64,000 nucleotides of DNA from Massilia mucilaginosa. Lineage in GTDB: Bacteria; Pseudomonadota; Gammaproteobacteria; Burkholderiales; Burkholderiaceae_D. The DNA lies in contig NZ_WHJH01000006.1 of NCBI RefSeq assembly GCF_011682145.1, positions 1-64,000 on the forward strand. The letters run 5' to 3'. Every line of letters begins with the position of its first letter. Within the stretch, counting starts at the first letter, position 1. Shown piece after piece: positions 28,639 to 33,197 of the stretch. The position numbers and the translations under genes are program-made. The notes beneath the pieces are model-generated. The model did not search any database. It had not been told where the DNA came from and saw only the letters and a list, made by a program, of their open reading frames with translations.

Positions 28639-28892
28639 CATATAACTAAATTTAATTCCTTAAAAATCAATTGCTTGCAATTCATTTTTCATGATGCGGA
28701 ACGGAATTTCTCTAAATGGAAGAGCGCGCAGGTGCAAACGCACCATGGCATTTTGCATTGTGAAATGCACTTCGCGCCTGATGAAATCCAGCACCCTTTT
28801 TGCGCCCGGGAAGCAGATCGGCGCCGGAGCCGGCCGCCGACGCACCAAAACAGGGAGATTTGTGTTGCACAGAAGACACACGAGGGTATAAT
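28639..28892. other. Non-coding gap upstream of aceA and of the first sensor leader
   Basis: I see no convincing gene. Short frames on both strands lack similarity and start signals. A promoter-like pair TTGCAC (28865-28870), 16 bp, TATAAT (28887-28892) on the plus strand could start the first sensor leader. A 6-bp inverted repeat GCATTT/AAATGC lies at 28748-28768. Confidence 0.5.
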
Positions 28893-29210
28893 TGTCACGA
28901 AAAACAACAGGAATCGCTCGAAAAACCATCGCTCGCTTACTGCTCCGTAGGATAATGTGCTCTCAGGCAATCCTTAACCACTGCCGCAGGGCGCAGCCGA
29001 CGTCTCCAGGCAGTTTGCAATGCGCTCCATGGCGGACAGTGCAACTCCTACCAACAATTCCTCATCCCAATCCCGTTGCGCAGACGAGCGGGATGGTTGC
29101 CAGATAAAGTCCGGCACGCTGTTTAGTGTCGGCCCAGCAATCGGTATCTTGATGTCCGATACGCTGGCCGATCTGCCACGTCAAGCAGACCTACATTACG
29201 AATGCAACTC
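28893..29210 (+). ncRNA. Conserved 5' leader of sensor gene 1 (candidate cis-acting RNA)
   Basis: This stretch aligns with the leader of the second sensor gene (30343-30669). Shared blocks in order: TCACGAAAwACAAC; ATAATGTGC; TCCATG..GGACAGTGC; a 7-bp hairpin 29071-29077/29087-29093; GGTTGCCAGATA; a second 7-bp hairpin 29111-29117/29126-29132; CGGCCCAGCAATCGGT; then the short upstream ORF. In both hairpins one G-U pair here is an A-U pair in the other leader, so pairing is kept while the sequence changes. Structure is inferred by eye. No known riboswitch class was recognised with confidence. Confidence 0.55.
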
Positions 29211-29214
29211 ATGA
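29152..29214 (+). CDS. Short upstream ORF, overlapping sensor gene 1
   Basis: A 20-residue frame, MSDTLADLPRQADLHYECNS, whose stop codon overlaps the sensor start codon (ATGA). The second sensor has the same arrangement with MSETLADLPRQADLYYEGPA. The first 42 nt of the two differ at one position only. Codons such as CCA, CGT, CAA and GCA are unusual in this GC-rich genome. It may be a leader peptide that couples translation, or the conservation may reflect RNA structure. There is no strong ribosome-binding site before it. Confidence 0.4.
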   Translation: MSDTLADLPRQADLHYECNS

Positions 29215-30287
29215 ACTCAAAATTTACTCTAAACATCTTCCACAAAGTACTCATCACGCTGTTAGCGGTCACGCTGATCCCTCTGATTACCTTGTGGCTG
29301 GTCAGTAACAAGGCGGCCCAGACCCAGTTGACGGCCAACGTGTCGCAAAACCTGGTCCTGACCATGGACACGGTGGCCGACGGCATTACCGCCTGGGACA
29401 GCACCAACGTGCGCGCCATGACCCAGGTCGGTTACCTGCCCGACATGGTATCGATGAAGGCCGAGCGCCAGAACCCGATCCTGTCCGTCACCGGCACCGC
29501 CTACGAATGGTCGTACCTGATGTTTACGGTCGCGCCCGACGGCAGCAACGTCGGCCGTAACGACGGCGGCGCCCTGACCCCCTACGGCGACCGCTCCTAC
29601 TTCCAGCAAGTGATCAAGGGCGCGCCGGTCGGCCGCCAGGTCGTGATCGGCAAGACCAGCGGCAAGCCGGCACTGATCCTGGCCACCCCGATCAAGGATG
29701 AAAGCGCCAACCTGGTCGGCGTACTGGCCATGTCGATGTACCTGACCGACATTTCCAAGATCGTGACCGATATCCGCGTCGGCGAAACCGGCCGTGCGAT
29801 CCTGCTCGACGCCAGCAACAAAGTCATTGCCCACGGCGATGCCTCCAAGGTGCGCGGCACGCTGCAGGATTTCGGCGCCTATCCCGCCCTCAAGGTGGCC
29901 GGCATCGACAAGGCGCCCGTGGTGTACACCACGGAAGACCGCAAAGTCATCGGCTTCATGCGCAAATTGCCGCAAGGCTGGACCCTGCTGGTCGAACAGG
30001 ATTACGACGAAGCGTTCCGCATCATGAAGCAGATGGAAAAGGATGCGCAGATCCTGATCGGCGTCAGCGTGGCGCTGGTCATCGCCATCGCGATTTTCCT
30101 CGGCAAGGCACTGACCCGTCCGATCAATGAACTGACCTCGATTGCCCGCCAGCTCAGTAACGGCGAGCTGCAAGTGACGATCGAACAAACCGAACGCGGC
30201 GACGAAATCGGCGCGCTGGCCCGCGCCATCGACCGTCTCGGCATCAGTATCAAGCTGGCAATGGATCGCCTGCGCAAGAAAAGCTGA
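29211..30287 (+). CDS. Membrane sensor with Cache and HAMP domains, copy 1
   Basis: A 358-residue protein with an N-terminal membrane segment (FHKVLITLLAVTLIPLITLWLV), a periplasmic double-Cache-like domain (about residues 35-275; PYGDRSYFQQVIKG, GVLAMSMYLTDIS, GRAILLDASNKVIAHGD), a second membrane segment (AQILIGVSVALVIAIAIFLG) and a HAMP domain (LTRPINELTSIARQLSNGELQVTI...DEIGALARAIDRL). It ends right after HAMP: there is no methyl-accepting, kinase or cyclase domain. It probably senses a small extracellular molecule and signals through a partner protein. The start at 29211 is chosen because the second copy has the same MNSKF start. Confidence 0.85.
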   Translation: MNSKFTLNIFHKVLITLLAVTLIPLITLWLVSNKAAQTQLTANVSQNLVLTMDTVADGITAWDSTNVRAMTQVGYLPDMVSMKAERQNPILSVTGTAYEWSYLMFTVAPDGSNVGRNDGGALTPYGDRSYFQQVIKGAPVGRQVVIGKTSGKPALILATPIKDESANLVGVLAMSMYLTDISKIVTDIRVGETGRAILLDASNKVIAHGDASKVRGTLQDFGAYPALKVAGIDKAPVVYTTEDRKVIGFMRKLPQGWTLLVEQDYDEAFRIMKQMEKDAQILIGVSVALVIAIAIFLGKALTRPINELTSIARQLSNGELQVTIEQTERGDEIGALARAIDRLGISIKLAMDRLRKKS

Positions 30288-30342
30288 ACCCCGCGCCATC
30301 GACAGTAGTGAAGTCGTTGCAGTAAATACACAAACGTCGCAA

Positions 30343-30669
30343 ATTCTCACGAAATACAACGAGACTTGCCGCAATACCGATGCTGTTGGTAAACACCGGT
30401 ATAATAATGTGCTTACAAGCAACCAAAATCACTGCTGACGATTGCGCCCCGGGATTGCTGGAAGACGGCGGCGCGGTCCATGAGGGACAGTGCCTCCCGC
30501 CGACAGCAAGCTCCGCATGAACGATCCCGTTGCGCCGCCGGCGAACGGGGTTGCCAGATACAGAAGTCCGACACCTTGTTTTTAATGTCGGCCCAGCAAT
30601 CGGTTCCTTGATGTCCGAGACGCTGGCCGATCTGCCACGTCAAGCAGACCTCTATTACGAAGGCCCAGC
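30343..30669 (+). ncRNA. Conserved 5' leader of sensor gene 2 (candidate cis-acting RNA)
   Basis: Fills the 382-bp gap between the two sensor genes. It is homologous to 28893-29210 with the same order of conserved blocks. Hairpin one is 30526-30531/30544-30549 with an extra inner stem (30533-30536/30540-30543); hairpin two is 30568-30573/30586-30591. A TATAAT at 30400-30405 could be an internal -10 element. Regions between the helices vary in sequence and length while the helices and single-stranded blocks are kept. Confidence 0.55.
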
Positions 30670-30673
30670 ATGA
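30611..30673 (+). CDS. Short upstream ORF, overlapping sensor gene 2
   Basis: MSETLADLPRQADLYYEGPA, stop overlapping the sensor start codon as ATGA. It matches the frame before sensor 1 at 15 of 20 residues, and differences cluster in the last six codons. A weak site GAAGG lies about 7 nt before the sensor ATG inside this frame. Confidence 0.4.
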   Translation: MSETLADLPRQADLYYEGPA

Positions 30674-31746
30674 ACTCAAAATTTAGTTTCAGTATTTTTC
30701 ACAAGGTCTTGATGACCTTGCTCGCGGTGACGCTGATCCCCCTGTGCACGCTGTGGGTGATCAGCGACCGGGCGGCCCAGCGCGAACTGACCGACAACGT
30801 CTCGCAAAGCCTGGTGCTGACCATGAACACGGTGGTCAACGGCATCAATGCCTGGGACGACACCAATATGCACGCCATGAACCAGGCCAGCCGCCTCGAC
30901 GACATGGTGTCGATGAAGGACGAGCGCCAGATTCCCCTGCTGAAAGCGACCGGCAAGGCCTACGAATGGTCGTTCCTGATGTTTACGATCGCGCCGGATG
31001 GCTCGAACACCGCCCGTAACGACGGCGCCGCCCCGATCAATTACGGCGACCGCAGCTACTTCAAGGCCGTGATGAGCGGCCAGCCGGTCGGCCGCCAGGT
31101 AGCGATCAGCAAAACCACCGGCAAGCCGGCACTGATCGTGGCCACCCCGATCCGCGACATCAACTCGGCCCTGGTCGGCGTGCTGGCGATGTCGATGAAC
31201 CTGACCGATATTTCCAAGATCGTGACCGATATCCGCATCGGCAAGACCGGCCGCGCGATCCTGCTCGACGCCACCAACAAGGTGATCGCCCACGGCGACT
31301 CGGCCAAGGTTCTTACCGCGCTGCAAGACTTTACCAACCATCCGGCCCTCAAGGTTCCCGGCATCAACGACGCACCCGTGGTCTATACTGCGGAAGAGCG
31401 CAAGAAGATCGGTTTCGTGCGCAAACTGCCGCAAGGCTGGACCGTGCTGATCGAACAGGACTACGATGAAGCTTTCGCCACCATGCACAAGATGGAAAAC
31501 GAAGCACGCATCCTGATCGCCGCCGCTGTGGCGCTGGTCATCGGCGTGGCAATTTTCCTGGGCAAGGCGCTGACCCGCCCGATCAATCAATTGACCGCCA
31601 TTGCCGTGCAACTGAGCAATGGCGAACTGCAAGTGGACATTCCGCAAACGGCCCGCGGCGATGAAATCGGCTCGCTGGCCCGTGCCATTGAACGTCTCGG
31701 CGTCAGCATCCAGCTGGCAATGGATCGACTGCGTAAAAAGGTTTGA
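30670..31746 (+). CDS. Membrane sensor with Cache and HAMP domains, copy 2
   Basis: A 358-residue paralogue of the preceding gene, the same length, with most residues shared. Domain order is the same: membrane segment, Cache region (NYGDRSYFKAVMSG, GRAILLDATNKVIAHGD), membrane segment (ILIAAAVALVIGVAIFLG), HAMP (RPINQLTAIAVQLSNGELQVDI). The Cache halves differ at several places (NVRAMTQVGYLPD against NMHAMNQASRLDD), so ligand preference may differ. It too lacks an output domain. It arose by tandem duplication that included the leader. Confidence 0.85.
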   Translation: MNSKFSFSIFHKVLMTLLAVTLIPLCTLWVISDRAAQRELTDNVSQSLVLTMNTVVNGINAWDDTNMHAMNQASRLDDMVSMKDERQIPLLKATGKAYEWSFLMFTIAPDGSNTARNDGAAPINYGDRSYFKAVMSGQPVGRQVAISKTTGKPALIVATPIRDINSALVGVLAMSMNLTDISKIVTDIRIGKTGRAILLDATNKVIAHGDSAKVLTALQDFTNHPALKVPGINDAPVVYTAEERKKIGFVRKLPQGWTVLIEQDYDEAFATMHKMENEARILIAAAVALVIGVAIFLGKALTRPINQLTAIAVQLSNGELQVDIPQTARGDEIGSLARAIERLGVSIQLAMDRLRKKV

Positions 31747-31767: not shown

Positions 31768-32358
31768 ATGTCACAACCGGAATTCATGCCATTTATCGAC
31801 GTGGTCGACCAGATCGCTGGCTTTTGCGCACAGCGCGTCAGCGGCACTGCCTTGGTCATCAGCGATGACAACCGCATGGCCCAGGTCCACCTGCAAGGCG
31901 GCAAGATCGTCTTCATCCTGTGCCGCGGCCGCCGCGGCCGCGACGGCCTGGCCATCATGCGCACCATGAAAAATGCGCGCCTGACCCTGGACAAGGCCGG
32001 CGTCGTCAATGCCGACGGCCTCGACTGGCCGACCGAAATCGTGCTGGGCTACCTCGACGGCACCCTGGACGACTTGCCGGGTACTGGCGTACTGGGCGGA
32101 GCGTCGCCACGCGCCGACACCGCGGCCGTGCGCCCGGTCGCCACGCCGGGCCTGACGCCCGACATCAAGGCCACCTTGCAGCGTTGCCTGGTCAAGTATG
32201 TGGGGCCAATGGCGGAGATCGTCTGCAGCGACCATTTCGACGGCGCCACCGATGTGCGCGCCGTGGTCATGGCGCTGGCCAAGGAAATCCCAAGCGACGA
32301 CCAGGCCGCCAAGTTCAAGGTCGACGTCGCCAAGGCGCTCGACATGCCGGCGTTCTGA
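31768..32358 (+). CDS. Cytoplasmic two-domain protein (DUF4388-like N-terminus)
   Basis: A 196-residue protein 21 bp after sensor 2, with GAGAGG upstream of the ATG. The N-terminal half (SGTALVISDDNRMAQVHLQGGKIVFILCRGRRGRDGLAIMRTM) has the pattern of DUF4388/PATAN domains known from bacterial signalling and gliding proteins. The C-terminal half (TLQRCLVKYVGPMAEIVCSDHF...VVMALAKEI) resembles a small helical domain found in serine/threonine-kinase and chemotaxis-like systems. It may be the missing output partner of the two sensors. That is an inference from position. Confidence 0.65.
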   Translation: MSQPEFMPFIDVVDQIAGFCAQRVSGTALVISDDNRMAQVHLQGGKIVFILCRGRRGRDGLAIMRTMKNARLTLDKAGVVNADGLDWPTEIVLGYLDGTLDDLPGTGVLGGASPRADTAAVRPVATPGLTPDIKATLQRCLVKYVGPMAEIVCSDHFDGATDVRAVVMALAKEIPSDDQAAKFKVDVAKALDMPAF

Positions 32359-32480: not shown

Positions 32481-32975
32481 TCACACCAGCTTCTGCTGCG
32501 ACACCACGATGCCATCGGCATCGGCATACAACCAGTCTCCCGGCTGCACCGCCACCCCGCTCACGCAGATGCGCACATTGCGTTCGCCCGCGCCCAGCTT
32601 GCTGCTCTTTTGCGGATGCGTGCCGAGCGCGCGCACCCCGATGGCGCAGGCATTGATTTCGTCGCTGTCGCGCACGCAGCCGTCCACCACGATGCCGCTC
32701 CAGCCATTGTTTTGCGCCAATAACGCCAGCTGACCGCCGACCAGCGCGCGGCGCAGGCTGGCGCCGCCGTCGATGACCAGCACATTGCCGTTGCCGGGCG
32801 CTTCCAGGGTAGCGCGCACCAGGGCGTTGTCTTCAAACACTTTTAGTGTCGTCACGCTGCCGCAAAAGCGCACACGTTGACCGTAGTGCCTGAACAGCGG
32901 CGGCAACACGGCCAGGCGGCCCTCTTCCAGCAGTTCGGGATGGTCGTCGCACAGGTCGGTGGTGGCAAAAGTCAT
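32481..32975 (-). CDS. rraA: RraA-like protein
   Basis: With an ATG at 32975 the protein has 164 residues, the usual RraA length. It carries ATTDLCDDHPE, GNGNVLVIDGGASLRRALVGGQLA, and GIVVDGCVRDSDEI, typical of the RraA/HMG-aldolase family. RraA inhibits RNase E; close relatives are 4-hydroxy-4-methyl-2-oxoglutarate aldolases. The VVDGCVRD motif fits both, so the exact role is open. It stands alone, opposed to the upstream signalling genes. Confidence 0.85.
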   Translation of the reverse strand: MTFATTDLCDDHPELLEEGRLAVLPPLFRHYGQRVRFCGSVTTLKVFEDNALVRATLEAPGNGNVLVIDGGASLRRALVGGQLALLAQNNGWSGIVVDGCVRDSDEINACAIGVRALGTHPQKSSKLGAGERNVRICVSGVAVQPGDWLYADADGIVVSQQKLV

Positions 32976-33197
32976 GTCGGCTCGCTCGCAAAAAATGGAA
33001 ATGAGAACAATTCTAAGCGATTGGCGCCGCCGCCCCTGCCCCTTGATTGAGTACGACCGCGCCACCGGGGTGTTGGTTCCCGTGAAAACAAGGTATGCGG
33101 GCGCGCCTGATGTGTCACAAGCGAAGCGCAGACAGCGGCTGACGCGGCGCCCGAGGCGCGCCATAATCGGTGCCTCGTTCTCGTCAAGGGGGCATGC

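Follow-up and report, generated by a model that had tools for sequence, protein, structure and literature searches.

A candidate lineage-specific leader RNA ahead of dCache_1-HAMP sensor genes in Massilia mucilaginosa

Two tandem sensor genes of Massilia mucilaginosa are each preceded by a long leader, which we regard, with reasonable probability, as an undescribed, lineage-specific cis-acting RNA that belongs to one sensor family and probably controls translation. This reading comes from sequence comparison, which shows that the leaders are homologous in seven genomes, are constrained at the nucleotide level, carry some compensating changes and no coding signature, and are linked to the sensor everywhere that was searched. 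At present, the leader counts as a candidate cis-regulatory RNA with a narrow distribution and without any match in Rfam release 15. If it does control the translation of a sensor gene devoid of a Shine-Dalgarno sequence, it would offer a compact case in which to test how RNA shape steers ribosome entry, and natural variants are at hand for comparison: the twelve leaders, the diverged type of a second genus, and a homolog (L085) whose leader is nearly lost. To our knowledge, few leader RNAs control receptors rather than metabolic genes.

The sensor locus and its two leaders

The window, i.e., the whole stretch of DNA that was analyzed, comprises 64,000 nucleotides of contig NZ_WHJH01000006.1, and all coordinates refer to it. 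The sensor locus contains the following features.

28948..28956, + strand: putative promoter-like -10 of leader 1, TAGGATAAT, without a good -35; GTAGGATAATGTGC is conserved in 5 copy-1 leaders
~28960..29210, + strand: leader 1 of sensor 1; its homologs are leader 2 and 10 leaders from 6 further genomes
29202..30287, + strand: sensor 1, dCache_1-HAMP (Pfam, ORF list); start probably at 29211 by comparison with other sensors
30400..30405, + strand: promoter-like -10 TATAAT of leader 2; GGTATAATAATGTGC is conserved in 5 copy-2 and 2 single-copy leaders
~30411..30669, + strand: leader 2 of sensor 2, homologous to leader 1 and to the leaders of other genomes
30670..31746, + strand: sensor 2, dCache_1-HAMP (Pfam), with its ATG at 30670
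31768..32358, + strand: partner gene (196 aa) in the sensor operon, without a Pfam match

Both tandem sensors contain dCache_1 and HAMP domains, and no further Pfam domain lies above the cut-off save Cache_3-Cache_2 in sensor 2. The sequence of sensor 1 contains an in-frame ATG at 29202 besides the one at 29211. According to the ORFs and Pfam, the divergent gene upstream of the pair encodes isocitrate lyase (aceA). Proteins similar to the 196-aa product are encoded directly 3' of sensors in other genera; its sequence is reminiscent of PATAN/DUF4388-type domains, and the protein may be a candidate effector of these output-less sensors. When sensor 2 was used as the query against genome contigs, five loci were retrieved, the three close ones being those of Massilia aquatica (95% identical), M. 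atriviolacea (93%), and Pseudoduganella violaceinigra (64%). Elsewhere in the window, five consecutive tRNA genes occupy the minus strand at 1150-1776, four of them with an identical covariance score.

The original prediction placed homologous leaders ahead of both Cache-HAMP sensors, and reading the sequence bears this out, at about 260 nt each. Constant blocks in the same order, separated by variable spacers, had been described, and the blocks are indeed common to both leaders, with indels in the spacers. The pair changes noted between the two copies are exact in hairpin one (U29076-G29088 in leader 1, U30530-A30545 in leader 2) as well as in hairpin two (G29114-U29129 and A30571-U30588, respectively).

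Both leaders (~250-260 nt) begin below a TATAAT-like box. Each sensor gene would have its own promoter-like box, from which a leader of ~260 nt would be transcribed, starting for leader 1 probably at ~28960-28964. Since a strict sigma-70 consensus scan of both leader regions gave no full promoter, the transcription starts of both leaders are positions that we infer. No intrinsic terminator (a hairpin followed by a T run) was found on the + strand of either leader region; a single one lies on the minus strand at 30591-30568, and shuffled sequences contained 0.6 on average.

Predicted helices, folding, and covariation

A structure-anchored alignment of 12 leaders from 7 genomes gave the helices P1, P2, H1, H2, H3, and H4. 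The leader would fold into an ordered series, in which P1 surrounds P2 and H1, H2 follows, and H3 and H4 come last, immediately ahead of the start codon; the last two hairpins may join via their loops. Probabilities in the list below are pair probabilities in the leader named.

28966-28970 / 29097-29101, + strand: P1 of leader 1, long-range helix GGCAA/UUGCC, enclosing P2 and H1
30418-30422 / 30551-30555, + strand: P1 of leader 2, AGCAA/UUGCC, with an outer A-C mismatch; probability 0.00 (unconstrained folding)
28979-28987 / 29032-29041, + strand: P2 of leader 1, CACUGCCGC / GCGG-A-CAGUG, with a bulged A
30430-30434 / 30488-30492, + strand: P2 of leader 2, CACUG/CAGUG; probability 0.00
29070-29077/29087-29094, + strand: H1 hairpin of leader 1 (hairpin one of the original prediction); probability 0.91
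30524-30531/30544-30551, + strand: H1 hairpin of leader 2; probability 0.99
29111-29116/29127-29132, + strand: H2 hairpin of leader 1 (hairpin two of the original prediction); probability 0.09
30568-30573/30586-30591, + strand: H2 hairpin of leader 2; probability 0.07
29134..29167, + strand: H3 hairpin of leader 1, CCAGC..AUCGG / CCGAU..GCUGG, with CUUGAUGU in its loop
30593..30626, + strand: H3 hairpin of leader 2, with one end pair A-G (CCGAG)
29172..29189, + strand: H4 hairpin of leader 1, UCUGC-CACGUCAA-GCAGA, invariant in 12/12 leaders
30631..30648, + strand: H4 hairpin of leader 2
29148-29155 with 29178-29185, + strand: possible loop-loop (kissing) pairing in leader 1, CUUGAUGU with ACGUCAAG
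30607-30614 with 30637-30644, + strand: possible loop-loop pairing in leader 2

The 5' helices vary among the leaders. P1 has five standard pairs in 7 of 12, and its outer pair is A-C in 5 copy-2 leaders. Its UUGCC strand belongs to the block CGGGrUGGUUGCCAGA, which is shorter in copy-2 leaders and can pair in this way with the GGCAA of the 5' end. The outer part of P2 is paired in 97% and the inner part in 81% over the 12 leaders, with A-A at one pair in 5/12 and a broken helix in G014_1; one inner pair is C-G in 6, U-G in 4, and U-A in 2. In H1, one pair is C-G in 10 and U-A in 2 of the 12 leaders and another is U-A in 9, U-G in 1, and C-G in 1, the twelfth being G-A; a C-C mismatch in 2/12 and some inner mismatches are its faults. 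The H2 pair highlighted by the original prediction is A-U in 5, G-U in 4, and G-C in 3 leaders of the 7 genomes. H3 is nearly invariant over the 12 leaders and displays no covariation.

In unconstrained folding of the 12 leaders, the mean pair probability was high for H1 (0.76), for the two parts of H3 (0.85 and 0.95), and for H4 (0.86). It was low for P1 (0.41), P2 (0.32-0.34), and H2 (0.31), which are not part of the favored fold in many leaders, and that of H1 was near 0 in G007_1 and G016_1. The single-copy leaders G012 and G003 formed the proposed helices at a probability of at least 0.83. Judged by eye, H2 overlaps bases of a longer form of H3, possibly an alternative state. The folding-energy z averaged about -1.8 over the 12 leaders (range, -0.7 to -4.2), with 6/12 above -1.45 and values of -3.4 and -4.2 for the single-copy G012 and G003, respectively; for comparison, it was about -0.4 in nine upstream regions of the third paralog, -0.9 for G005, +0.6 for G006, and -0.0 to -2.4 for four leaders of the second genus (g40).

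Five pairs change on both sides (two in inner P2, two in H1, and one in H2). For a tree null, 1000 alignments were generated by replaying the observed substitutions along the sensor tree, at columns chosen at random. Paired cells amount to 94.5%, which the tree null attains in 0/1000; the covariation score of 2.09, versus a tree-null mean of 0.75 (standard deviation, 0.59), is attained by 30/1000, and the count of five double-change pairs by 68/1000, so that this count is not rare. In a second control, random helices that pair in leader 1 were used (n = 300), the varying helices being trimmed to six pairs each; they attained the paired cells in 34/300, the score in 3/300, and the double-change count in 1/300. 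Sliding the partners of the varying helices lowered the paired cells from 93% to 23-44%, with 0 to 3 double-change pairs still present. Finally, H2-H4 alone in a plain alignment (A2) have one double-change pair, and letter shuffles attain this count in 127/500 and the score in 94/500; this lack of an excess arises because most H2-H4 pairs never vary. All of these controls flatter the proposed structure, since it was drawn from the same sequences on which it was tested. Taken with this bias, the compensating changes appear to lend moderate support to the helices. The most conserved helices hardly vary, and covariation therefore cannot speak for them.

The conserved 3' block and the sensor start codon

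The most conserved part of the leader is a 55-nt 3' block, from CUUGAUGU to UUACGAA, rather than the hairpins of the original prediction. In the 12 leaders, 49 of its 55 columns are invariant, including an invariant run of 24 nt; by comparison, four-fold degenerate sites of the sensor are invariant in 41/112. Within the block, the H3 loop UUGAUGU and the H4 loop ACGUCAA are complementary over 7 nt in 12/12 leaders, or over 8 bp with the closing G of H4, and 64 of 5000 shuffled H3/H4 loop pairs were of equal or greater strength.

The main rival to an RNA is a site acting at the level of DNA, an unlikely explanation in our estimate: the 3' block would be an operator or an internal sensor promoter, TCTGC-N8-GCAGA and ATCGG-N11-CCGAT would be protein half-sites, and the RNA hairpins would be a by-product. 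The block is dyad symmetric and free of indels in the 12 leaders, its helices vary too little for covariation to favor RNA, and the transcription start is a predicted one, all of which would suit such a site. However, the block lies roughly 190 nt downstream of the TATAAT-like box and within ~75 nt of the start codon, and the A-U/G-U/G-C steps in H2 and C-G/U-G/U-A steps in P2 are typical of RNA. Moreover, when up to two mismatches are allowed, the two leaders are the only places in this genome with the core pattern, so that no regulon is seen.

A 20-codon ORF, which begins with the ATG in the H3 loop, spans the 3' block, and its stop overlaps the sensor start as ATGA. This arrangement raises the possibility of a short leader peptide translationally coupled to the sensor, which we consider very unlikely. 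The start ATG, the stop, and the length are kept in 12/12 leaders, and coupling through the TGA-ATG overlap would suit the 7/12 sensors that lack a Shine-Dalgarno sequence. Over 19 codons, however, substitutions are spread evenly over codon positions 1, 2, and 3 (6, 5, and 6, versus 192, 126, and 482 in the sensor), which places the constraint on the nucleotides and not on a peptide. Accordingly, a test for a leader-peptide attenuator found no conserved coding signature in the 20-codon ORF of the 12 leaders. By eye, the mini-ORF has no Shine-Dalgarno sequence of its own, and the g40 leaders have no equivalent ORF overlapping the sensor start. Coupling without conservation of the peptide may still be compatible with such even substitutions. 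A longer coding protein was also considered, as the leaders of win1, G016_1, G012, and G003 contain a continuous ORF of ~61-66 aa. It was rejected: in other leaders, stops or frame differences precede the final ~28 codons, and in these 28 codons 8, 9, and 8 substitutions fall on the three codon positions.

Shine-Dalgarno pairing is absent (-0.1 kcal/mol) in 7 of the 12 sensors with a leader; in the remaining 5 it is weak, at -3.8 to -4.0. It is -5.8 in 7/9 genes of the third paralog, the other two having 0.1 and -0.2 with the start chosen. Among diverged homologs, the values are -5.0 for G005, -5.8 for G006, -6.4 for G121, -2.5 for three other g40 genes, -2.6 for G328, and -1.1 for both G212 and G395. 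Of the window genes, four (aceA, the gene for the 196-aa protein, and the ORFs 32481-33164 and 33198) range from -5.9 to -10.3, and two others have -0.3 and -0.9. Since some third-paralog and window genes also lack a Shine-Dalgarno sequence, its absence is not unique to the leader genes, and translational control is a role that we infer for the leader.

We favor an RNA leader whose most likely role is to set or switch sensor translation. Given that a Shine-Dalgarno sequence is missing in 7/12 copies, access of the ribosome would be governed by the presentation of the H3-H4 block and of the stretch that follows it. In a more specific version, which we hold to be quite unlikely, the sensor would be an RNA-gated membrane protein: kissing loops beside a start codon without a Shine-Dalgarno sequence would admit ribosomes in one state only, the trigger being temperature, a metabolite, or a protein, none of which the data single out.

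Distribution among relatives and comparison with known RNAs

The 12 leaders occur in 7 of 17 genomes of the genus, every one directly ahead of a sensor; the sensor itself is found in 9/17 at E ≤ 1e-60. According to the original prediction, the similarity would reflect recent duplication if this pair were the only one and other genomes had no conserved helices; the helices are in fact kept in the other leader genomes. A promoter-leader-sensor unit that was simply copied, with no RNA function, is a highly improbable explanation. It would account for the tandem pair in 5/7 leader genomes, in which copy-1 and copy-2 sensors form separate clades (FastTree), but G003 and G012, with one copy each, have the same leader, and the 3' block shows stronger conservation than the silent sites of the sensor. 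Judged by these sequences, the leaders are more than a recent duplication.

The two sensor genomes of the genus without this leader, G005 and G006, have leaders of another sequence that are alike (0/500 shuffles attain their score). By eye, these leaders (L032 and L033) have in common a hairpin, GCGUUCC-nGA-CGC, whose closing pair is U-A in one and A-U in the other; a similar hairpin is also seen in L083. The alignment of the middle of the G006 leader with that of G322 was equaled or bettered by 7/500 shuffles.

We built two covariance models, R1 from the genus leaders and R2 from four g40 leaders, and searched 383 genomes of the family, sampled evenly from a larger set. R1 hit 12 places in 7 genomes and R2 hit 5 in 5 genomes, and every hit lay at the sensor gene; the filters were strict and few candidates were scored per genome, a setting in which weak relatives may escape. 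The sensor protein is encoded in 17/383 family genomes at E ≤ 1e-60 and in 5/74 g40 genomes at E ≤ 1e-90. The core 19-mer, allowing up to two mismatches, occurs in 29/392 family genomes, 7 of which carry the leader; its places in the other 22 were rejected as leader copies, the context resembling the leader in none. Beyond the family, 40 order-level genomes were searched by DNA similarity and viral contigs for an exact pattern; the exact 20-mer had no match in the viral contigs. In a DNA search of 100 relatives, a single 35-bp match was obtained in G088 (E, 2.4e-4).

The g40 leaders (L083, L084, L086, and L087), located upstream of the sensor, constitute a second, diverged structured type, with the helices CUGAGCAAC/GUUGCUCAG and AAAUCAC/GUGAUUU; among the four sequences, both sides differ in 4 of the 69 predicted pairs. 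In L085 (G328, also g40; ~1475-1512), the leader is almost wholly gone, and only its two ends match R2, with 22.7 bits. The genus and g40 leaders have in common a UUACGA motif ahead of the ATG and, in most copies, a start of the form GCAAC-(5-6 nt)-AUCAC. R1 and R2 fail to detect each other's leaders, and the leaders of the nearest other homologs are mostly not alignable. Local alignments of genus and g40 leaders were attained by 13 to 360 of 500 shuffles at the 5' ends (eight pairs), by 13 to 51 at the 3' ends, and by 156 to 436 in the middles (four pairs each). Given this absence of cross-detection and alignments often matched by shuffles, we do not claim a single class for the two types.

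Turning to known families, only five tRNAs of the whole window reach the gathering score of Rfam 15, and none lies in the leaders. A permissive cmscan of 28850-30720 at E ≤ 10 gave three chance-level matches, none of them to the c-di-GMP-I riboswitch, a faint likeness to which had been suggested by the original prediction. That prediction's proposal of an undescribed cis-acting RNA otherwise fits, in that there is no Rfam match, the helices are kept elsewhere with moderate covariation, and the constraint acts on nucleotides; the c-di-GMP-I hint is not supported. What the leader shares with that riboswitch (GEMM), whose model has no match here, is a position ahead of a signaling gene. In a widespread metabolite riboswitch, the aptamer would recur in distant taxa and ahead of various genes, whereas in the 383 family genomes, under strict filters, R1 was found only before this sensor gene, in 1 of 44 genera. 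The leader resembles those of ribosomal protein genes and of cspA, which are gene-specific and act on translation, in being long and structured, in preceding one gene, in forming a narrow sequence family, and in having no + strand terminator; in contrast, its gene encodes a transmembrane sensor. A limited set of open papers contained nothing on such a leader, and six genus or family names do not occur in the main text of either PMC8632094 or PMC11109978.

In six related loci, Rfam at E ≤ 1 gave six matches, to microRNA-type and snaR models, all below the gathering score. Downstream of the sensor in L084 (3195-3295), both strands score against microRNA hairpin models, below the thresholds, which suggests a long palindrome.
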